From the NCBI RefSeq assembly GCF_009695545.1, contig NZ_VUNS01000036.1:1-52345 (forward strand): 52,345 nt of DNA, read 5' to 3'. Both the position numbers and the translations under genes were made by a program. This DNA comes from Victivallis lenta (GTDB taxonomy: Bacteria > Verrucomicrobiota > Lentisphaeria > Victivallales > Victivallaceae). Positions within the stretch are counted from its first letter, which is position 1. Each line of letters begins with the position of its first letter. The notes under the pieces are model-generated. The model was not told where the DNA came from. It did not search any database and saw only the letters and a program-made list of their open reading frames with translations. Of the stretch, positions 980 through 47,317 are shown in pieces.

Positions 980-1061
980 CTTTGACAAAATAGAATGAAT
1001 TGCAGAAATAATCTGCAAAAAAGATAGAACGCCCTACATCACAAAGACATATGGCATAAGA

Positions 1062-1190
<129 letters not shown>

Positions 1191-1211
1191 GCCTCACTTC
1201 GTTCGGCGCAA

Positions 1212-1233
1212 GTTCGCTGAATCCTCAGCGAAC
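1212..1233. repeat. Hairpin next to the microsatellite
   Basis: GTTCGCTGA-atcc-TCAGCGAAC is a 9-bp perfect stem with a 4-nt loop. It is preceded by a shorter ACTT/AAGT pairing at about 1196-1212. The microsatellite-hairpin combination looks like a dispersed repeat unit rather than coding sequence. Confidence 0.6.
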
Positions 1234-1724
1234 CTTCGGGAGCCGGAGATATGGAATCGACAGGGTGAGCGGAACCAGCCGCCCCGGAGACATCTCCGTG
1301 CGGCTGAACCGGAAGAAAACGGCACTCTGTGTTTGACCTCATGATCATACTCAAAAAAAGATTCTTATATAAATAATAGTACATTTTTCACGCAGATGCA
1401 AGTCAAATATTGAAATAATCCATATTTTTTGTATTATCAGGTGCCAATTGAAAAAGATTCCGCCGATTTTATACTGAAATAACGATACACCCAACCGTTT
1501 TCTTCCGATTCGGCTGACATTTAAACGACTAACTCCGGCCACGGCACAAGTCTGTTCGAACCGAAGAAATCATGCATGCAGGAATTGCGAAATCATCGCC
1601 CGTTCCTGCCCCCGTTGTTTCTTCAGGTCTCTGCAACCATTTTCGTTTCAGCGGATTTCATCGCTTTTCATTGCATTTCCATGCAATCTCCGGAACGGCC
1701 GCGATACCGCCGGGAGAAAACCGC
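1234..1724. other. Gene-free intergenic region
   Basis: AT-rich between about 1340 and 1480, with no supportable gene. At 1670-1687 ATTGCAT-ttcc-ATGCAAT forms a small hairpin downstream of the AraC gene, which ends at 1725. It lacks a T-run on the minus strand, so it is only a weak terminator candidate. Confidence 0.5.
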
Positions 1725-2654: not shown

Positions 2655-3707
2655 ATGAAAAAAATCGGAATCTGTTTCATCGGCTGCGGGAATCATGCCA
2701 ACCGCTTTGTCTATCCCGCCCTCTCCGGCCTGCCGGACGCGGCGCTGCTGGCGGTCTGTTCACTCGACCCGGAGGAGGCGGAAACGAACCGCCGCAGACA
2801 CGGCGCGGCACACGCCTACACCGACTACCGGGAAATGATCCGGCGCGAACGGCCGGAGGCGGTGATCGTCGTGGGGCCGCCGCAGCTGCACTTCGAGGCC
2901 GGCGCGTTCTGCATCGAATGCGGAATCCCGTTCTATACGGAAAAGCCGTCCGGCGCCGACGTCCGGCAGGCGCGGGAGCTGGCCGGACGGGCGGAAGCGG
3001 CCGGAGTCTACGGCCAGGTCGGCTTCATGATGCGTCACAGCGCGGTAATCCGCGAAGCCGGGCGGCTCATGGCGGAGCACCGGACCGGCGCGCCGGAGTA
3101 CGGCATCGTGCGTTATTTCACCAGCGGCCCCTACCGCTCCGACGAAATCTACGGAATGCCGGGAACGGACGACCTCTCGTTCCTGCGCAGGTACCTGGCC
3201 GTTCAGGCGGTCCACCCGGTCAACCTCGCGGCGTCGTTCCTCGGGGATATCGCGGAAGTCACCTCCGAAGTCCGGTTTTCCGGCGAAAACATCCTGACGG
3301 AGATCCGGCTGAAGGACGCCGCCGGAAAACGGATGAACGCCCTTCTGCACACCTTCGTCGCGCCGGAATACGGCAACCTGAAATTCGGAACCGAGCTGTT
3401 CTTCGCCGACCGCAGCATGATCTTCACCAACGCCTTCGCCTCGCTCGACTACTACCCGCCCGCGCCGTCGCCGCATGGAAATTCACATCACTGGGAATTC
3501 GCCGCGTTCGGCAACAGCAACATCAAAATGGGCTACGAAACCGAACTGCGCTATTTCCTCGACTGCGTGCGGGGAAACGAGCCGCGCGAAGGCCTCGCCA
3601 CGCTCCGGGACAGCCTGAAAACCATGGAAATCCTGGAAACCGTCGCCAACGAACAGGAGAAACGGGAACATGATTCGCAAAATTCTGACATTCAACGGGC
3701 TGGATAA
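2655..3707 (+). CDS. Gfo/Idh/MocA family oxidoreductase
   Basis: 350 residues. The N-terminal Rossmann fold binds NAD(P): IGICFIGCGNHANRF is the glycine-rich loop. The family EKP signature is present as YTEKPSG near residue 95, the lysine that contacts cofactor and substrate. The following alpha/beta domain (VQAVHPVNLAASFLG) has the His expected for substrate binding. Such enzymes oxidise or reduce sugars, inositols or sugar-derived substrates. The ATG at 2655 is preferred over GTG at 2646 because GGAAAG lies 8 nt upstream. It overlaps the next gene by 38 bp, and the two very likely act in one pathway. The substrate cannot be told from sequence. Confidence 0.92.
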   Translation: MKKIGICFIGCGNHANRFVYPALSGLPDAALLAVCSLDPEEAETNRRRHGAAHAYTDYREMIRRERPEAVIVVGPPQLHFEAGAFCIECGIPFYTEKPSGADVRQARELAGRAEAAGVYGQVGFMMRHSAVIREAGRLMAEHRTGAPEYGIVRYFTSGPYRSDEIYGMPGTDDLSFLRRYLAVQAVHPVNLAASFLGDIAEVTSEVRFSGENILTEIRLKDAAGKRMNALLHTFVAPEYGNLKFGTELFFADRSMIFTNAFASLDYYPPAPSPHGNSHHWEFAAFGNSNIKMGYETELRYFLDCVRGNEPREGLATLRDSLKTMEILETVANEQEKREHDSQNSDIQRAG

Positions 3708-38276: not shown

Positions 38277-41200
38277 TTATAATAACGAGTTATCCGTCCA
38301 CATTTCGCACTGGCTGATTACGGTTTCCAGAGCTTCTTCCTGACCTTCAGGCGGATATTTGTATTTTTTCAGCAGGCGTTTTACCATTGAACGCATTTTT
38401 GCTCTGGCGGTTTCTTTTTTCTGCCAGTCAACGGTTCGATTGCTTCGGAGCATTTCGGTCAGTTCTTTGGTGATCGCCACCAACTGGTCATTGTCGTAAA
38501 AGTCTTTGACTGCCTGCGGTTTGGTCAAGGCATCATAAAACGCGATCTCTTCGACGGATAAGCCAAGCTGATTACTGCTGGCGGCGGCAGCGGCGATTTC
38601 GGCTGCCATCTTTTTCAGTTCTTCGATCACTTCTTCGTTGGTCAGCATACCGTTGAGGTAAGCGTTCATCGCCCGCTGGAGCTTTTCAGAAAAGAGTTCC
38701 GATTTCACCACATTGGTACGACGATAGACCGAGACCTGTTCTGCGATCAGTTTTTTCAGAATTTCAATAGCAACATTCTTTTCCTTCATCTTGGAAATTT
38801 CTTCCAGGAACTTTGGATCAAAAAGCGAAAAACCTTCTTTTACATCGGCAAAAAGGTTGATAACGCCGTCGCTTTTGATACTCTGTTTCAGCAGTTCATT
38901 GATCCGTTCGTTGATCTCTTTCAATGAGAAATGCTTGGGATTGCCGGTAATACGGGTAAGCATGGTTCTGACGGCTTCAAAGAAAGCAGCTTCATAACGT
39001 TCGTTTTGCGGAACAATGCTGCGACAAAGCGACAACGCCTGACGAAGCAGCAGACCTTCTTTGATAAAGAGTTCTTTCTTTTTCGGTTCTTTCGGATCGG
39101 AAAGGAAGTTCACGCCGCCAATGATAAGTTGGGAACGCTGAAGGTCGGTTCCGTCCATAAAGTTGGCATAATCGAAACCGTGAAAGAGATCCCGGCAAAC
39201 TTCCAGTTTCTCCTGAAATTTGGGCAGTACAGCCTTGCCAATATCGGTATCCCCGTAGTTGCTCTGGTCGCGTTTGGAATAGTCGTTCATCGCCTGTTTC
39301 AATGCGCTGGCAATGCCGACATAATCGACCACAAGACCGCCTTCTTTATTTTTGAACACACGATTAACACGGGCAATCGCCTGCATGAGATTGTGTCCGG
39401 ACATGGGCTTATAAACGTACATCGTCGCCAATGACGGAACATCAAAGCCGGTGAGCCACATATCAACAACGATAGCGATTTTCAGCGGATCGTCGTTGTC
39501 TTTGAACTTACGGGCAAGTTCATCTTTGCGGGACTTGTTGCCGATGATACTGCGCCATTCTTCGGGATCGTCGTTGCCGGAAGTCATCACCACTGCAATT
39601 TTTTCATTCCAAGCGGGACGCATTTCGAGGAGTTTCCGGTAAATATCCATTGCAATCGGTCGGGAGTATGCCACGATCATGGCTTTGCCGGTCAATTCCT
39701 GCGCCCGGTAGTTTTCGTAGTGATCCACAATGTCATTGCAGAGAGCTTCTATGGTCTGGGGTGCTCCGAGGATGCTTTCCATTTGGCCCAGCTCTTTTTT
39801 GCTTTTTTCGATGGCGTGTTCTTCTGCGTTTTGTGCCAGAAGCTCATATTCAGAGTCGATCTTTTTCAAGATCTTTTCGTCAAGGTTCAAATGAATCACG
39901 CGGCTTTCGTAAAAGACAGGGCGTGTTGCGCCATCTTCCACAGCCTGAGTCATATCGTAAATGTCGATATAGTCACCGAAAACCTCGCGGGTGTTGCGGT
40001 CTTTTTGCGAGATCGGAGTTCCGGTAAAACCGATAAATGTGGCATTGGGGAGACTGTCGCGGATGATCCGGGCTGTACCGATATGAATTTTGCCGTCCTC
40101 GTTGATCTTTTCAAAACCATACTGTCCCCGGTGAGCTTCGTCCGCCATTACAACAATGTTGCGCCGCTGAGAAAGTGCGGAATCGGATTCCTCAAACTTC
40201 TGCATGGTGGTGAAAATAATGCCGTTTGCTTCCCGATTGGCAAGCAGCTCTTTCAGGTTCTCCCGGCTGGAAGCCTGCTGCGGAATCTGCCGGAGGAACT
40301 CCTGACACTTGGAAAACTGTCCGTAGAGCTGATCGTCAAGGTCATTGCGGTCGGTCAATACAACAATGGTGGGACTGTTGAGTTCCTGCTGGAGCAAGTG
40401 GGCATAAAAGACCATAGACAGGGATTTACCGCTGCCCTGTGTGTGCCAGAAAACGCCGCCGCGCCCGTCGGTCTGTGTGGCATTAACGGTGGAAACAACA
40501 GCTTTGCGGACAGCATAGAACTGGTGATAACCAGCGAGGATTTTCGCATCATTGCCATTGTCGCGGGAAAAGCAAATGAAGTTCCGCAAAATGTCAAAGA
40601 AACGCTGTTTTTCCAACATTCCTTCAAAAAGCACATTAAAGTCAGCAAAGGCTGTGCTTTCGGTTTCGCCGTCAACGGTTTTCCATTGCATAAAACGATC
40701 TTCGCCGGAGGTGATCGTTCCGACACGGGTTTCCGCCATATCGCTCATAACACAGAAAGCATTGTAAACAAAGAATGACGGAATTTCCAGCATATAGTTG
40801 CGGAGCTGCCGGTATGCTTCCGAGGCATCGGTTTCTTCTCTTGACGGAGATTTGAGTTCAATAACGACCAGCGGCAGACCATTGACAAAGATTACCACAT
40901 CGGGGCGTTTTTCGGAGTGTTCCTGAAAGGTCCATTGATTGGCGACAATAAAACTGTTGCGGTCAATATGGGCATAGTCGATCAGGTGAACACGCTCATA
41001 TTTCTGCTCGCCGTTATGAAAATAGGCTACCTCAATACCATTTTGCAGATAATCAGTAAAAATGATATTCCGCTGTTCCAGTTTGCCGTTTTCGATATTG
41101 CGGAGTTTGAACAAGGCTTCGTTGATCGCCGCCTGAGGAATACCAGGATTGACAGCGATAAGAGCCCCTTCCAAAACATCCGAATACAACGGATCGGTAT

Positions 41201-41297
41201 AGTCCCGAACCACATCCGGCCCGTAAACATGGGTATATCCGAGCTGTTCAATCAGCTGGATCACCGCATTTTCATAATTTGCTTCTGTATATGCCAT
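38277..41297 (-). CDS. hsdR: Type I restriction endonuclease subunit R
   Basis: 1006 residues, the normal HsdR length. The nuclease domain has D133 in RPDVVIFVNG and E147-x-K149 in VVIELKS, a PD-(D/E)xK site. The superfamily 2 translocase follows: FWHTQGSGKSLSMVFYAHLL (Walker A), VVMADEAHRGQYG (DEAH box), FIGFTGTPI (motif III) and ANO-like later motifs AIARVNRVF (motif VI). The C-terminal helical region binds the methyltransferase. It translocates DNA from an unmethylated site and cuts at a distance. Intact. It follows the DUF3644 gene by 3 bp. Confidence 0.95.
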   Translation of the reverse strand: MAYTEANYENAVIQLIEQLGYTHVYGPDVVRDYTDPLYSDVLEGALIAVNPGIPQAAINEALFKLRNIENGKLEQRNIIFTDYLQNGIEVAYFHNGEQKYERVHLIDYAHIDRNSFIVANQWTFQEHSEKRPDVVIFVNGLPLVVIELKSPSREETDASEAYRQLRNYMLEIPSFFVYNAFCVMSDMAETRVGTITSGEDRFMQWKTVDGETESTAFADFNVLFEGMLEKQRFFDILRNFICFSRDNGNDAKILAGYHQFYAVRKAVVSTVNATQTDGRGGVFWHTQGSGKSLSMVFYAHLLQQELNSPTIVVLTDRNDLDDQLYGQFSKCQEFLRQIPQQASSRENLKELLANREANGIIFTTMQKFEESDSALSQRRNIVVMADEAHRGQYGFEKINEDGKIHIGTARIIRDSLPNATFIGFTGTPISQKDRNTREVFGDYIDIYDMTQAVEDGATRPVFYESRVIHLNLDEKILKKIDSEYELLAQNAEEHAIEKSKKELGQMESILGAPQTIEALCNDIVDHYENYRAQELTGKAMIVAYSRPIAMDIYRKLLEMRPAWNEKIAVVMTSGNDDPEEWRSIIGNKSRKDELARKFKDNDDPLKIAIVVDMWLTGFDVPSLATMYVYKPMSGHNLMQAIARVNRVFKNKEGGLVVDYVGIASALKQAMNDYSKRDQSNYGDTDIGKAVLPKFQEKLEVCRDLFHGFDYANFMDGTDLQRSQLIIGGVNFLSDPKEPKKKELFIKEGLLLRQALSLCRSIVPQNERYEAAFFEAVRTMLTRITGNPKHFSLKEINERINELLKQSIKSDGVINLFADVKEGFSLFDPKFLEEISKMKEKNVAIEILKKLIAEQVSVYRRTNVVKSELFSEKLQRAMNAYLNGMLTNEEVIEELKKMAAEIAAAAASSNQLGLSVEEIAFYDALTKPQAVKDFYDNDQLVAITKELTEMLRSNRTVDWQKKETARAKMRSMVKRLLKKYKYPPEGQEEALETVISQCEMWTDNSLL

Positions 41298-41300
41298 ATT

Positions 41301-42305
41301 TTATGCTCTTTTCTTTAATGAAACTGGACCCTCATACAACGATTTATTTTTTTGACAATGGTCCAAAACAAAATCCAACCACGATTGATACCAGCGCCAA
41401 TCTTTTCCCGCAATCATTACGCCAAATCCTTTTGCAGTATTTTTAGCATCTTCTTGCTTGACTAACATGGTATGTTCATGCATCCTAAATTTTCCATAAC
41501 CTTTAGACTGCACATAACTTACTATCTGACCAGGTAAAAATTTAGGGCGTTCTGTTTCTTTTATGACAGCGTAGTGAGCATTTACTTTTTCTGCCAATTC
41601 AGAATCAGCTTTCACAAATTCAATTACTTGGTCAGCTTGTCCTTTTCTGTTTGCCGTTTTGGGAACAAAAAGAATGCGATAAGCATATTTGGGAGATCCA
41701 TATTCTACATCAGACAGTAATTTATCAAAATTAAGAATATATGACTTTATATTTCCTGGCAAATCTTTTTTGTCAGACAGCATTTCTTTTTGTTCATCAG
41801 AAATAGATGAAAATTGCAAACTAAATGATAGATGACGCTGCATTGTGCTGTCATTAAATAATTTTCTTAAATATTCATCATAGTTCAAACAACAGGCTTG
41901 AAATTTAGCGGAGAGAATATCATCTATACGCGTTGTCATTTGGTGTTCTATTTCGTGTCTTATGCCAATGAGAAAACGTAAATTATTGGATGTATCTTTA
42001 TCTAATGGCGAGGATTCATCGTTTAAACATCTTTCGAGTTCCCAGAATTTATATGCACCATTTTTTGTTCGATCAAATTTTCTTTTTCCATTGGCTTGAG
42101 TTTGAAAATAGCGATATTCAATGCCTGTGCTTCTATAAAATGCATGTAACAAATATGTCCAGGCTATTATCATAAGGACAATATAGGTTTCAGCTTTAAA
42201 AGAAATATTAGGGTTATTAAATATTTGAACGGCAGAAAGTGCAGCTTCTTTTGATTTTTGCAATAATTCTTGCTTTACTGAACCAACTCTACGAATTCTT
42301 CCCAT
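41301..42305 (-). CDS. DUF3644 protein
   Basis: 334 residues. LLQKSKEAALSAVQIFNNPN, with FKAETYIVLMIIAWTYLLHA and FYRSTGIEYRY, is the DUF3644 signature; LIGIRHEIEHQ resembles the helical histidine motif seen in HEPN-like domains. Members are common in restriction-modification loci and defence islands; their function is unproven and an RNase (HEPN-type) role is an inference from RHEIEH. Its AT-rich codon use differs from hsdR and hsdM. It lies between hsdS and hsdR, a frequent place for accessory defence genes. Confidence 0.82.
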   Translation of the reverse strand: MGRIRRVGSVKQELLQKSKEAALSAVQIFNNPNISFKAETYIVLMIIAWTYLLHAFYRSTGIEYRYFQTQANGKRKFDRTKNGAYKFWELERCLNDESSPLDKDTSNNLRFLIGIRHEIEHQMTTRIDDILSAKFQACCLNYDEYLRKLFNDSTMQRHLSFSLQFSSISDEQKEMLSDKKDLPGNIKSYILNFDKLLSDVEYGSPKYAYRILFVPKTANRKGQADQVIEFVKADSELAEKVNAHYAVIKETERPKFLPGQIVSYVQSKGYGKFRMHEHTMLVKQEDAKNTAKGFGVMIAGKDWRWYQSWLDFVLDHCQKNKSLYEGPVSLKKRA

Positions 42306-42314
42306 AATTTTCTG

Positions 42315-42355
42315 CTCCGCTAAATTGCTATTTAGATTTCCACTTCCGACACGTC
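42315..42355. repeat. 41-bp direct repeat, copy 1 (3' end of intact hsdS)
   Basis: Perfectly identical to 44571-44611. It contains TAAATTGCTATTTA and the last codons and stop of hsdS. Recombination between copies would delete the recombinase gene and one hsdS (2,256 bp). Confidence 0.9.
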
Positions 42356-43525
42356 GATTTCCCCGGACATCAGCTTGGGCAGCAGGGCGTCCCGCAGCCG
42401 AGTCAGTCTTTGGTTTTCTGATTCAAGTAATTCTTGCTGGTCAAATAAAGGCTGTGTAATCGTTGAAAAATTCATCAAGGCTTCTTTCGCAGGGATAACA
42501 GCTGGAATAGCTTTCATTACACTGCCAGACACTTCTTTAAATGTTGAACCAGATGCCATTGATTCAATCTTAGGCAAATTGTGCTTCAGAAAACAATAAA
42601 CAAATGCAGTTCCGATATGTAAATGCGGTACAACAGATTTGAACCCTTGATTTGTGGTGATTTCATTTTTTGCAATAGCAATATAACCGATAGGAGCTCT
42701 CGAACTAAACAATACTGTTCCGCGTGGCATAATGACAGCACTGCTATTTCGCAATCCTGCTGGCGTTATATCTGACTCTCCCTTCGATATGAACTTTGAT
42801 TTGTTTCCCGACAAATCTTTAGGCGTTATCCATGCAATTCCATTTGATGTATAGTATTCAGGCTTCGCTTTGGATGGGGTACTTCCGCCAACAACATTTC
42901 CCAGATCCGCAATAGTACCTTGTTTCCAATTTGCACAATGCTGCGAATTTATGAAAAAATCTTCAAAGAGCACTCGTATTTGTTCTTCCAAATTATGGTT
43001 TATCTGAGTGTTCCATCGTATCTTTGAATCAAGAGAAGATAAAATATCGACAGTCAAATCCTGTTGTGAACGCGGGGGAAGCGGAATCTCCATATTTGCG
43101 TATGTTTGAGCATTTATATTTCCGCGTGTACTTCCAGTGTTAAAAGATGCGATCCAACCACGATACGCTTCTGAAATGGCATAATATTTTATAAACAAGG
43201 GATTCACTTTCTGGTGATCAAGAGAAAATTTAATCAAAAATCCTGCGTAAACAAGTTCACCATCCCGAGAGTCGTAAAAATAACTTCTTCCCGTACTGTT
43301 GCCAGTTCTTGCAAAAACAATGTCATTCTCTTTCAGAATATAATTTTTTGCTTTGGGATCGTTCACAGATTTCTTATCGGCAAGATTCAATGTTCCATCA
43401 TCATTTATATCCGTTATACGCAGATAAGTGTAAAGATCCTCTGAAAATGGAACCGCAGAAGCAGGGATACCATAATTACCTTTTCCAATGCAAATATCTG
43501 ATAATTTTACTTTTGTTATATTCAT
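42332..43525 (-). CDS. hsdS: Type I specificity subunit S, intact copy
   Basis: 397 residues with the two-fold design of HsdS. Target recognition domain 1 is at about 1-150, the central conserved helix follows (QQDLTVDILSSLDSKIRWN; TQINHNLEEQIRVLFEDFF), domain 2 at about 200-350, then the C-terminal conserved helix (LESENQRLTRLRDALLPKLM) ending GEIDVSEVEI. The two domains set the bipartite DNA target of the methylase and nuclease. The start overlaps the recombinase stop as ATGA, so its translation follows the recombinase. Recognition domains differ from those of the split copy upstream. Confidence 0.93.
   Translation of the reverse strand: MNITKVKLSDICIGKGNYGIPASAVPFSEDLYTYLRITDINDDGTLNLADKKSVNDPKAKNYILKENDIVFARTGNSTGRSYFYDSRDGELVYAGFLIKFSLDHQKVNPLFIKYYAISEAYRGWIASFNTGSTRGNINAQTYANMEIPLPPRSQQDLTVDILSSLDSKIRWNTQINHNLEEQIRVLFEDFFINSQHCANWKQGTIADLGNVVGGSTPSKAKPEYYTSNGIAWITPKDLSGNKSKFISKGESDITPAGLRNSSAVIMPRGTVLFSSRAPIGYIAIAKNEITTNQGFKSVVPHLHIGTAFVYCFLKHNLPKIESMASGSTFKEVSGSVMKAIPAVIPAKEALMNFSTITQPLFDQQELLESENQRLTRLRDALLPKLMSGEIDVSEVEI
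42981..43008. repeat. Central hsdS repeat, copy in intact hsdS
   Basis: TGTTCTTCCAAATTATGGTT, continuing TTATCTGAG, encodes the conserved INHNLEEQ helix. The split hsdS has two related copies at 45201-45221 and 45290-45312. It is a candidate exchange point between hsdS genes. Confidence 0.7.
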
Positions 43526-44514
43526 CCCACATACCTCCGGTGAGCAATTTTTACGTTACTTTGATTGACCAGAGCATAGCACATGGTCGTATCAATCTTT
43601 TTATGCCCAAGCAGACGCTGGACTTGTTCAATTGGCATACCTTTATCAATCGCACGTGTTGCCAGTGTTCGCCGGAACCGGTGCGGATGTACATTTTCAA
43701 TAGCAGCGATTCTCCCCAGCTTCCGGAGTAGAAATTCAACCCCGCCGATTTCCAGCCGTTTGTGCGGGGATCTCAGCGAAACAAAAAGAGCCGGGTTATC
43801 GTCTGTTCTGCTGTTCAAATATTGCCACAGATGAATCTTTGTCCGGGCATCGAAATAAACTTCCCGTTCGCTGCTGCCTTTCCCGAAAACGATGCAGGAT
43901 CGCTCGTTGAAGTTTATATCCGTTCGGTTCAGTTTGACCAGTTCTCCAACACGCATCCCGGAGGAAGCCAGCAGTTCCACCATTGCCAAGTTGCGAATTT
44001 CAGAACAAGTATCACGCAAAACTTCAATGGTTTCGTCGGTAAACGCTTCTTTAATGATCTTTGCGGTCTTGATCCGATGGATACGCCGCACCGGACTTTT
44101 AACGATATAATCTTCATCCTCAAGCCAGGCAAAAAAGCTGGAGAGAATCCGGCGTATATTGTCAATAGTAACCTTGCTGACATTCCGTTCCTGTTGGTAT
44201 TCTGCCAGATACAGGCGAAGATCGTCGGTATCAATCAGCGTTATTTCTTTTTTGATCCAGGCAAAGAAGCGACCTATTGTTTCCTGATAATAAATGACCG
44301 TTTTCCCGGAACAGCCTTCTATTTGCTTTGCCGAAATAAACATGGTCAACAGGCGATTATTCGCTTCTTGTGTATTATCAACAGGCGAGACCGGTTCGGA
44401 GATCTGGTATTTTTGCAGACAGCTCCGCATAGCGGTCACCAGCTGTTCTTTCTGGCGATCGCTCAATTTTCCGTTCATAGCCTGTTGAATTTCCTTCATC
44501 AATTTTTCTTTCAT
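43522..44514 (-). CDS. Tyrosine recombinase within the hsd locus
   Basis: 330 residues, XerC/D-like. The core-binding domain spans about 45-150 (FFAWIKKEITLIDTDDLRLY). The catalytic residues are Arg in SSGMRVGELVKL, His-x-x-Arg in VHPHRFRRTLATRA, His in LLGHKKIDTTM and Tyr in MCYALVNQSN. Recombinases in this position invert or exchange hsdS segments in many gut bacteria, changing restriction specificity. Here both hsdS genes face the same way, so exchange or deletion between direct repeats is the visible possibility. TCAGGAGAAAC precedes the ATG. Stop overlaps the next hsdS. Confidence 0.9.
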   Translation of the reverse strand: MKEKLMKEIQQAMNGKLSDRQKEQLVTAMRSCLQKYQISEPVSPVDNTQEANNRLLTMFISAKQIEGCSGKTVIYYQETIGRFFAWIKKEITLIDTDDLRLYLAEYQQERNVSKVTIDNIRRILSSFFAWLEDEDYIVKSPVRRIHRIKTAKIIKEAFTDETIEVLRDTCSEIRNLAMVELLASSGMRVGELVKLNRTDINFNERSCIVFGKGSSEREVYFDARTKIHLWQYLNSRTDDNPALFVSLRSPHKRLEIGGVEFLLRKLGRIAAIENVHPHRFRRTLATRAIDKGMPIEQVQRLLGHKKIDTTMCYALVNQSNVKIAHRRYVG

Positions 44515-44570: not shown

Positions 44571-44611
44571 CTCCGCTAAATTGCTATTTAGATTTCCACT
44601 TCCGACACGTC
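44571..44611. repeat. 41-bp direct repeat, copy 2 (3' end of split hsdS)
   Basis: Identical to 42315-42355. It lies just upstream of the recombinase gene, whose start is at 44514. Confidence 0.9.
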
Positions 44612-45277
44612 AATTTCTCCGGCCATCAGCTTCGGAAGCAGTGCGTCACGAAGCTGTGCCAGTCTTTGGGATTCCATTTTGTTTGTTTCAATAGTTTCCC
44701 AGAAAAAAGATGTCAAACGGTCAAATTCTTTTAACACATTTTCTGCGGGAAGTACGATTTTTATTGCATTAAGTATATCTGTTGTCATGCTTGGAACCGC
44801 AGAACCACTATTCATAGATGCTAAATCTAAGGCCGATAAAATATGGTATGTATATTTAGCTGCTCCTGCTTTTTTCGGCACAGAATAAAACATCGTATCA
44901 ACGGTCCAAAAATCGCCAATTACCCGCATAACATTATTCAAAGTACCTTTCCGAGGGATCAAAACTGATTCCCCTGAAAATAAAGCTTTTTCGGCATAGC
45001 GCATAAGTCCTCCCGATCCATAAACAGGAATTGCTCCATCCGCCAATTTCTTATGATCCTTTCCATACCGTATTTCAAGCATGTCTTTTAATGTGCCTAC
45101 ATTCCATCCTGCTGGGATCTGTCCAAGTTCAGAGTCGACAAACGCTCCATTCTGGAACGGATCAAAATCTACAAACCAAGATTTGAAGATTGCCTTTGCC
45201 TGTTCTTCCAAATTATGGTTTCCATAAGCAGGAAACAGGCACAAAGCCATAAAAATTGTCACGATAACAATTTTCAT
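44588..45277 (-). CDS. hsdS: HsdS C-terminal half-subunit with new N-terminus
   Basis: 229 residues. Residues 1-19 (MKIVIVTIFMALCLFPAYG) are encoded by the inserted 83-bp unit and look like a hydrophobic leader. HsdS sequence starts at NHNLEEQAKAIFKSWFVDFD and continues with target recognition domain 2 (QIPAGWNVGTLKDMLEIRYG) and the C-terminal helix ending AGEIDVSEVEI. GGAGGGG lies 8 nt before the ATG, which overlaps the upstream stop as ATGA. The half carries one recognition domain and one conserved helix, the minimum that in other type I systems can pair as two halves. The hydrophobic leader might hinder this. Confidence 0.8.
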   Translation of the reverse strand: MKIVIVTIFMALCLFPAYGNHNLEEQAKAIFKSWFVDFDPFQNGAFVDSELGQIPAGWNVGTLKDMLEIRYGKDHKKLADGAIPVYGSGGLMRYAEKALFSGESVLIPRKGTLNNVMRVIGDFWTVDTMFYSVPKKAGAAKYTYHILSALDLASMNSGSAVPSMTTDILNAIKIVLPAENVLKEFDRLTSFFWETIETNKMESQRLAQLRDALLPKLMAGEIDVSEVEI

Positions 45278-45304
45278 GCAGCGATCCCCTCCAAATTATG
45301 GTTT
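45207..45304. repeat. 83-bp insertion with duplicated 15-bp hsdS sequence
   Basis: TCCAAATTATGGTTT occurs at 45207-45221 and 45290-45304, 83 bp apart. The unit is not a multiple of three. Between the copies lies AAAATTGT-tatcgtg-ACAATTTT (minus-strand reading), an 8-bp perfect stem. Removing one unit restores a single continuous HsdS frame (INHNLEEQAK). Confidence 0.9.
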
Positions 45305-45813
45305 ATCTGAGCGTTCAGCTCAATTTTGTCGTCAAAGGCTGTCAAAATTGAAGCAACTTTTTGTTGTGTCTTCAGGTCTGGTAAAATTACTGAGATGGAT
45401 TCAAATGTGTCCCGCGTAATGGTATCAAAAACAGAGCCGTGAGTATTCTTTTTTATCGTTTCGATGGAATGACGCAGCAAATAAAAAAGATAGTCATTAC
45501 AGGTTATTCCAGGCTTTGCTCTTAAACCATAGCAAGATTGATTAAAAGCCATTTCCTTTGCAACCTGGGCCAATACCCCAACTGTTCCCCGCGCAGAAAT
45601 GATGATTTCTCCTGGATACAATATTCGAGTGGAACTATTGTTTAGTCCAGCCTCTGTAATTGTTTTTTCGGTTGTAAATACATGTCTAAAATCGTTATTA
45701 AAGTCGACAACAGAAAGCCAGGGAATATCGCCACCCCAATAATCTGAACGAGAGGTTTTCGGAGTTCCACCACCTATAATATCTGCCAATTCAGACAATT
45801 TATATTCTTTCAT
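45274..45813 (-). CDS. hsdS: HsdS N-terminal half-subunit (split)
   Basis: 179 residues from the ATG at 45813, which lies 1 nt past the hsdM stop; the longer reading from 45834 would lie inside hsdM. Target recognition domain 1 includes YKLSELADIIGGGTPKTSRS and GDIPWLSVVDF. The conserved helix LKTQQKVASILTAFDDKIEL then AQINHNLE is followed by GIAA and a stop created by the 83-bp insertion. It would normally continue into the 44588-45277 frame as a ~385-residue HsdS. Confidence 0.85.
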   Translation of the reverse strand: MKEYKLSELADIIGGGTPKTSRSDYWGGDIPWLSVVDFNNDFRHVFTTEKTITEAGLNNSSTRILYPGEIIISARGTVGVLAQVAKEMAFNQSCYGLRAKPGITCNDYLFYLLRHSIETIKKNTHGSVFDTITRDTFESISVILPDLKTQQKVASILTAFDDKIELNAQINHNLEGIAA

Positions 45814-45814
45814 A

Positions 45815-47317
45815 TCATTCCACCTCGAATCCAATGGCTTTCAGATTCTTTTTGATCTCGCTTTCCAGATCGTGGGATTTTGCGAACAGTGCTGAAAGTT
45901 CGGTGGTCAGGCGTTCCATTTTTTCATCGAAAGGCTCGCCGTCATCTTCCTGTTCTTCAATGCCAACGTATCTGCCCGGAGTCAGAATATAATCCTGTTC
46001 GGCAATCTGGGCTGTGGTGGCAACAGCACAGAAGCCTTTGACATCTTCCAGCGTCCCGTTTTCGTAGGCATCAAAAGTTTTTGCAAGTTCCTGAATGTCT
46101 GCATCGGTCAGCATACGCAGTTTCCGGGAAACCATCGTTCCCATTTTGCGGGCATCAATAAAGCAGGTTTTCCCCTTTTGCTTTTTATTGCGGCTCAAGA
46201 ACCACAGCGAAACCGGGATCTGTGTCGTATAAAAAAGCTGTGTCGGCATTGCAACGATACAAGATACGAGATCATCTTCAATGATATTTTTGCGGATTTC
46301 GCCTTCGCCGCCGGATTGGGACGAAAGAGAACCATTCGCCAACACCATGCCAATTTTGCCGTTGGGAGCCAGGTGGTGGATCATGTGCTGAAGCCAGGCA
46401 AAGTTCGCATTGCCTGACGGCGGCACACCATATTTCCAACGAACATCATCTTTCAGGCGATCCGCCCCCCAATCGGAAAGGTTGAAGGGAGGATTTGCCA
46501 TCACAAAGTCAGCTTTTAAAGTCGGATGACAGTCGTTGAAAAAGGTATCCGCGTTATAATTTCCCAGATTTGCTTCAATGCCCCGGATCGCCAGATTCAT
46601 CTGTGCCATCTTCCAGGTGGTCGGATTGGAGTCCTGACCGTAAACCGAAATATTGTTGATATTGCCCTGGTGGTTTTCCACAAACTTTGCCGACTGCACA
46701 AACATGCCACCGGACCCGCAGGCAGGGTCGTAAACCCGGCCGTTGTAAGGCTTCAGGAATTCAACCAACGTTTTAACCACACAGGCTGGTGTGAAAAATT
46801 CTCCGCCTTTCTTGCCTTCCTGTTCGGCAAACATAGCAAGGCAGTATTCGTAAGTGCGGCCCAGAATGTCGCGGGTGTCGCCATGATCTTTCATCTTGAT
46901 ATTGGTGAAAAGGTCCACCACATCACCCAGACGGCGTTTGTCCAGTTCCGGGCGGGCAAAGTTCTTCGGCAAGATGCCTTTCAGTCGGACGTTTTCTTTT
47001 TCAATCAGAATCATCGCATCGTCAATGGTTCTGCCGATTTCAGGCGTATGAGCCGCGTCTGCAATCTTTGCCCAACGTGCTTCCGCCGGAACGAAGAACA
47101 CATTGCAGGAGGTGTATTCGTCCCGATCTTCCGCAAAGTCCGGATCTTCCGCCATAAGTTCATTATAGCGGGCCTCAAATTTGTCCGAGATATATTTCAG
47201 AAAGATAAGCCCAAGAACCACCTGCTTATATTCCGCAGCATCCATATTTCCGCGCAAAATACAAGCGGCATCCCAGATCTCTTTCTCAAAACCAATATTC
47301 GCAGTGTTTTCTGTCAT
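45815..47317 (-). CDS. hsdM: Type I DNA methyltransferase subunit M
   Basis: 500 residues. The N-terminal helical domain (FEKEIWDAACILRGNMDAAE; VVLGLIFLKYISDKFE) is typical HsdM. GRVYDPACGSGGMFVQSAKF is the SAM-binding motif I and KADFVMANPPFNLSDWG the catalytic NPPF motif IV of N6-adenine methylases. The C-terminal helix ends IKKNLKAIGFEVE. With HsdS it methylates the target site and protects host DNA; with HsdR it forms the nuclease complex. AAGGAGATAAAAC precedes the ATG. Intact and of family length. Confidence 0.95.
   Translation of the reverse strand: MTENTANIGFEKEIWDAACILRGNMDAAEYKQVVLGLIFLKYISDKFEARYNELMAEDPDFAEDRDEYTSCNVFFVPAEARWAKIADAAHTPEIGRTIDDAMILIEKENVRLKGILPKNFARPELDKRRLGDVVDLFTNIKMKDHGDTRDILGRTYEYCLAMFAEQEGKKGGEFFTPACVVKTLVEFLKPYNGRVYDPACGSGGMFVQSAKFVENHQGNINNISVYGQDSNPTTWKMAQMNLAIRGIEANLGNYNADTFFNDCHPTLKADFVMANPPFNLSDWGADRLKDDVRWKYGVPPSGNANFAWLQHMIHHLAPNGKIGMVLANGSLSSQSGGEGEIRKNIIEDDLVSCIVAMPTQLFYTTQIPVSLWFLSRNKKQKGKTCFIDARKMGTMVSRKLRMLTDADIQELAKTFDAYENGTLEDVKGFCAVATTAQIAEQDYILTPGRYVGIEEQEDDGEPFDEKMERLTTELSALFAKSHDLESEIKKNLKAIGFEVE

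Follow-up and report, generated by a model that had tools for sequence, protein, structure and literature searches.

An 83-bp stop-restart unit, recurrent in Victivallales, divides hsdS in a putatively tvr-like type I restriction-modification locus of Victivallis lenta

The window analysed here is a 52,345-nucleotide stretch of Victivallis lenta DNA, whose minus strand carries a type I restriction-modification locus in the order hsdM–S1a–unit–S1b–tyrosine recombinase–hsdS2–DUF3644–hsdR. The hsdM-proximal hsdS is divided by the unit into an N-terminal half (S1a) and a C-terminal half (S1b), and the tyrosine recombinase gene lies between two same-orientation hsdS regions, with hsdM and hsdR outside. 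The same layout is found in G049, another genome of the class, in which a recombinase homologue 75% identical to that of the window sits at the equivalent position. The features of the locus are listed below by their positions in the window.

45815..47317, minus strand: hsdM
45274..45813, minus strand: S1a, the HsdS N-terminal half, 179 aa, with one recognition domain (TRD) and the central helix; last residues NHNLEGIAA, then stop
45207..45304, minus strand: the unit with both repeat copies, also in three other genomes
45290-45304, minus strand: midpoint repeat 1 of the unit
45222-45289, minus strand: 68-bp interior of the unit
45207-45221, minus strand: midpoint repeat 2 of the unit
45248..45278, minus strand: predicted 14-bp hairpin, 5' arm containing the S1b start codon; -12.3 kcal/mol, z = -4.1
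44588..45277, minus strand: S1b, the HsdS C-terminal half, 229 aa; first residues MKIVIVTIFMALCLFPAYG, later TRD2 and tail helix
44571..44596, minus strand: 26-bp tail repeat GAAATCTAAATAGCAATTTAGCGGAG, covering the stop codon of S1b
43522..44514, minus strand: tyrosine recombinase (Phage_integrase, SAM-like N domain; NCBIfam XerA-type)
42332..43525, minus strand: hsdS2, an intact second HsdS of 397 aa; start/stop ATGA overlap with the recombinase gene
42987..43001, minus strand: midpoint repeat in hsdS2
42315..42340, minus strand: second tail repeat, covering the stop codon of hsdS2
41301..42305, minus strand: DUF3644 gene, beyond the second tail repeat
38277..41297, minus strand: hsdR

As the preliminary description of this DNA had proposed, each half of the divided gene keeps a recognition domain and a helix: the PF01420 (Methylase_S) model is matched at nearly full length by both S1a (positions 3-167 of 168) and S1b (1-165 of 168), and S1a aligns to residues 231-406 of 1yf2. 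The most likely start of S1a is ATG 45813, in preference to the upstream TTG 45834. Scans for promoters and terminators returned chance-level scores only.

The unit is delimited by two identical 15-bp copies of AAACCATAATTTGGA inside hsdS, spaced 83 bp apart (45304-45290 and 45221-45207, minus strand). Everything previously ascribed to it is found on the minus strand: the 83 bp contributes a stop codon, a GGAGGGG ribosome-binding site, an ATG and a frame shift, the last because 83 mod 3 = 2. Specifically, the first frame ends in INHNLEGIAA at a TGA; the S1b start is the ATG at 45277-45275, which overlaps the S1a stop as ATGA, with GGAGGGG located 8 nt upstream. With the 83 bp taken out, the flanks form a single open HsdS frame of 380 aa, in agreement with the earlier prediction that loss of the unit would restore a full-length protein. 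The N-terminus of S1b comprises MKIVIVTIFMALCLFPAYG, a unit-encoded hydrophobic leader in place of the start of the central helix, followed by NHNLEEQAKAIFKSWF, TRD2 and the tail helix. Derivation of the unit from the adjoining central-helix sequence by duplication was considered and rejected (DNA similarity p 0.43; protein comparison inconsistent). Apart from a CTTG microsatellite (1062-1190), the AAACCATAATTTGGA pair is alone in the window among direct repeats of at least 15 nt spaced 30-199 bp apart. The microsatellite itself comprises 32 perfect copies of the tetranucleotide and may be a phase-variation tract; the open reading frames that cross it (1063-1344, plus strand; 1034-1384, minus strand) have no clear identity.

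The midpoint repeat extends beyond the unit. The copy in hsdS2, at the corresponding point of that gene, is identical to the second copy of the unit over 21 bp and matches the first over 27 bp at 96%, and unit-less hsdS genes of relatives likewise hold AAACCATAATTTGGA or a near-identical sequence; therefore no target duplication was created by insertion. The preliminary description was right that the 15 bp occurs in two identical copies around the insert, and its attribution of the second copy to the insertion event does not hold. In V. vadensis, the tail repeat is found over the stops of two other genes, one Fic and one KilA-N, and one of these copies carries a single mismatch; given that the sequence coincides with the stops of unrelated genes (S, Fic and KilA-N), protein conservation cannot account for it. 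A possible core common to midpoint and tail repeats, TAAA-N4-AATTT-N-G-N2-GA, agrees at 12 of 19 positions, which was equalled in 9.5% of shuffles and is not significant. Contigs of several assemblies stop at or near the repeats (the end of G088:C22, the start of G179:C194, the ends of G007:C48 and C68), as would be expected if the downstream sequence varies or repeats.

The 83-bp unit occurs in 4 of 198 genomes of the class, the window genome included, and these span three families; the copies in the other three Victivallales carriers are ~95% identical to that of the window. Victivallis vadensis DSM 14823, of the same genus, has a different second domain behind the unit, while G088, a Victivallales metagenome-assembled genome (MAG) of another family, has a different TRD1 and a contig that runs to the last base of the second 15-bp copy and no further. 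G146, a sheep-rumen Victivallales MAG of the third family, has just the last part of hsdS ahead of the unit and lnu(C) behind it, joined at the AATTTG of the second repeat copy. This junction could stem from recombination at a look-alike site, from microhomology joining or from an assembly chimera. The sequence upstream of lnu(C) in ISSag10 agrees with the tail repeat at 17 of 21 aligned positions (p 0.0015 against 40-nt shuffles, p 0.04 against 200-nt shuffles). The G146 gene (L018:7137-7551) is 92% identical to the known ISSag10-borne one.

The architecture was also sought by pattern, as two midpoint-type repeats 45-75 bp apart in the 198 class genomes, with the reversed pattern as control. 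Four genomes matched (the window genome, V. vadensis, G088 and G049), against none for the control. The G049 match adds a fifth genome, with a diverged 74-bp unit in which AAACCAAAATTTGGAG is the duplicated sequence, and the ATGA stop-start overlap and a hydrophobic restart, MNHWIMTICLLGLSLT, are again present; its interior has weak DNA similarity to the 83-bp unit (p ~0.02). It lies in the hsdS behind the recombinase, the hsdM-proximal hsdS being intact and the split copy downstream. Together, the unit and its diverged version are present in 5 of the 198 genomes. Unit-less alleles occur at the hsdM-proximal site in G179, of the same genus as G088 (open until the contig end), and in G012 (full length). 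Two further pattern matches were rejected, one outside hsdS (G003) and one with a TAA inside (G103), and a phylum-wide pattern search for further linkers yielded, besides G049, a single match, considered unrelated from its sequence. In G034 (L049, reverse-strand 2700-2730), the junction within an hsdS falls precisely on the midpoint site but breaks the reading frame, as an imprecise crossover would. Searches with the unit found no match in plasmid, phage or IMG/VR collections and, among 388 genomes of the phylum, the known carriers only, and the idea of a widespread mobile element was rejected accordingly. Recurrence in relatives, once with a different second half, gives the unit the look of a maintained module and not of a random break.

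Between the window and G088, hsdM is 81% identical, with synonymous sites saturated, and the two copies of the unit are mismatched at 5 of their 83 sites (94% identity), fewer than any 83-bp stretch of hsdM (at least 9). Such low divergence would point to constrained DNA or to an exchange among lineages in recent time; in both cases the unit would count as a moving or maintained module. Against V. vadensis, the unit has 4 differences where 6.9 are expected from hsdM (p 0.17) and is not significantly more conserved. Six positions of the unit vary, and at four of them the change is silent in the half that they encode. S1a, compared between the window and V. vadensis, where both are split, has 32 synonymous and 7 non-synonymous changes (dN/dS 0.053), a constraint that may date from a time when it was still part of an intact HsdS.

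The second ATG appears to be embedded in secondary structure. The stem of the predicted hairpin is identical across all four copies of the 83-bp unit; the ATG of the G049 unit also falls in a predicted stem, the stability of which is no better than that of shuffles. The hairpin suggests translational coupling of S1b to S1a, in which ribosomes arriving at the S1a stop would open the structure hiding the overlapping ATG, so that S1b synthesis would depend on prior S1a synthesis and reach a comparable level. Another conceivable route, programmed bypassing of the repeat by ribosomes, was set aside; a restart from the unit's own ribosome-binding site is simpler and is also kept in the diverged version. 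The hydrophobic leader could act as a signal peptide (PAYG|N) and misroute S1b. A structure prediction for S1b, with a pLDDT of 44, was too poor for use.

Comparison with V. vadensis outlines what is exchanged at this locus. The two genomes align at 91% from beyond hsdM to slightly past the unit and are unrelated through the TRD2 region, which is of type A in the window and of type B plus Fic in V. vadensis. TRD2 type A directly abuts the tail repeat in the window; from the tail repeat to the recombinase start the two are identical (100% over 100 bp), to the point where the V. vadensis contig ends. The pattern of the swap therefore indicates that exchanged segments extend from the midpoint repeat to the tail repeat. 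In V. vadensis, the downstream hsdS holds a relative of the window TRD2 (84% aa identity), preceded by a midpoint repeat that lacks the unit. We infer that the recombinase is the agent of this midpoint-to-tail exchange. The recombinase gene is absent from the V. vadensis assembly save its first bases. Accessory genes are found within the exchanged segments of V. vadensis, between TRD2 and the tail repeat, namely Bro-N/Fic and KilA-N genes (L012:91-990, L013:689-1555). A second slot of variable content lies between hsdM and hsdS, with a TIR-domain gene in G049 and, in G088, G179 and G012, DUF6680 or genes that look like it (L048:8725-9492; L014:5869-6417; L019:690-1244; L047, reverse-strand 2789-3298).

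Among known systems, the closest is tvr/SpnIV of Streptococcus pneumoniae, in which hsdM and a first set of hsdS segments are followed by a toxin-antitoxin pair and a tyrosine recombinase, then by further hsdS segments and hsdR (PMC6265443). Its same-orientation repeats are a 'midpoint' of ~18 bp and a 'tail end' of ~70 bp, and its recombinase moves segments by way of circles that are excised and reinserted (PMC6265443). The window locus shares with tvr its gene order, same-orientation midpoint and tail repeats and a tyrosine recombinase, and corresponds to a '2+2' form of the tvr layout. The repeat sequences differ, and the window has no toxin-antitoxin gene by the recombinase, where tvr has phd-doc; V. 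vadensis and G049 do have a Fic/DOC family gene close to it. Since phd-doc is regulatory in tvr and not part of the recombination machinery, we claim that the locus works like tvr and not that it is a member of that family. The parts of PMC6265443 consulted make no mention of a TRD-less stop-restart linker between two midpoint repeats.

Other type I systems bear on the split itself. In NgoAV of Neisseria gonorrhoeae, hsdS is likewise split near its centre into two ORFs, and the split and fused forms of HsdS have different specificity (PMC9577141). The NgoAV split arises by polyG frameshift and its second half is reported inactive (PMC9577141), whereas in the window an inserted unit gives the second half its own start. 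Half-HsdS proteins of EcoR124I, EcoDXXI and NgoAV form dimers that methylate symmetric targets (PMC3874165, PMC9577141); in EcoDXXI and EcoR124I one TRD plus helix suffices for this, the proteins being truncated derivatives (PMC3874165), unlike the window, which has a conserved linker in a shuffling locus. Both halves in the window have what such activity needs, one complete TRD and a dimerisation helix. Finally, recombination between hsdS copies alters specificity in SpnIII/ivr, S. suis and other inverting type I loci, which use inverted repeats where the window has direct ones (PMC7394358).

The reading we favour, at a probability of roughly 0.55, is that of a tvr-like hsdS shuffling locus in which the unit is a maintained stop-restart linker giving two coupled half-HsdS proteins. 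The tyrosine recombinase between the hsdS copies would swap segments bounded by the midpoint (AAACCATAATTTGGA) and tail (GAAATCTAAATAGCAATTTAGCGGAG) repeats. The unit, between two midpoint repeats at the hsdM-proximal and presumably expressed hsdS, would occupy the slot of the extra N-terminal segment in the pneumococcal '3+1' arrangement, terminating the N-terminal half and restarting translation of whatever segment comes next. The product would most likely be two half-HsdS proteins pairing together on the original bipartite target, with S1a perhaps also pairing with itself on a symmetric target. The anatomy of the locus, the recurrence of the unit, the different partner behind it, the repeats as segment borders and the constraint on sequence are observed; recombinase action, translational coupling and half-subunit activity are inferred. 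The earlier suggestion of a switch in specificity rather than an inactivation is retained in part: the designed-looking two-half split, the switch-type layout and the unit-less alleles in related genomes (G179, G012) agree with it, and specificity is more likely to change by swapping of whole domain segments than by gain or loss of the 83 bp. A point against the linker is G146, where the unit precedes lnu(C) and follows an hsdS fragment and so is not always within a working S.

The division of hsdS might instead serve to silence it. If the unit were a TRD-less dummy N-terminal segment that destroys the expressed HsdS, shuffling past it would re-enable the enzyme, and its place in the extra-segment slot, the hydrophobic, signal-peptide-like stretch that replaces part of the central helix, the unit-less alleles at the equivalent site in G179 and G012 and the intact hsdM-proximal hsdS of G049 all fit such a cassette. 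We consider this possible, though the less probable account. Simple inactivation is argued against because the unit is kept in three families, its architecture is kept in the 74-bp version and S1a has a dN/dS of 0.05; moreover, a stop alone suffices for an OFF state, yet the ribosome-binding site, the overlapping ATG and the hairpin are all kept, and for this reason active coupled halves are somewhat more likely than an OFF state.

A relic is harder to reconcile with the data and seems unlikely. Here the unit would be a decayed N-terminal segment that lost its TRD by deletion, was passed among related loci by recombination and no longer has a function, as its '3+1' position, its rarity (5 of 198 class genomes even with the diverged version) and the out-of-frame joining of an hsdS-family segment at the site in G034 would allow. 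Set against decay are the unit's divergence from G088, lower than that of any hsdM stretch of its length, the open frames on both sides of the unit in carriers with complete sequence and the identical architecture of two diverged versions. Least probable is an ordinary insertion, a mobile element or IS scar that broke hsdS with a 15-bp target duplication: a 68-bp insert between two direct copies has that outward form, and in G146 the unit adjoins lnu(C), a gene carried by ISSag10, but unit-less hsdS copies also have the 15 bp, no terminal inverted repeats (by eye) or transposase were seen, and the unit is always at one site and is absent from the plasmid, phage and IMG/VR collections.

Building on the stop-restart linker that we favour, a more tentative and on balance doubtful extension is that it makes any incoming segment, even lnu(C), a separate, translationally coupled half-protein, with the locus toggling between single-chain and two-chain HsdS; if true, this would be an extra mode of specificity change besides segment swapping. 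No description of a stop-restart linker of this kind was found in the literature searched, relative to which the new part is a conserved linker that would convert a single-chain HsdS into two halves through an overlapping stop and start. One carrier of the unit, V. vadensis DSM 14823, is in culture. The REBASE survey of such systems targeted inverted repeats (PMC7394358), and an inverted-repeat-only survey would miss the Victivallales locus. On the reading favoured here, direct-repeat shuffling of type I enzymes, of the tvr type, would extend from streptococci to Victivallales.
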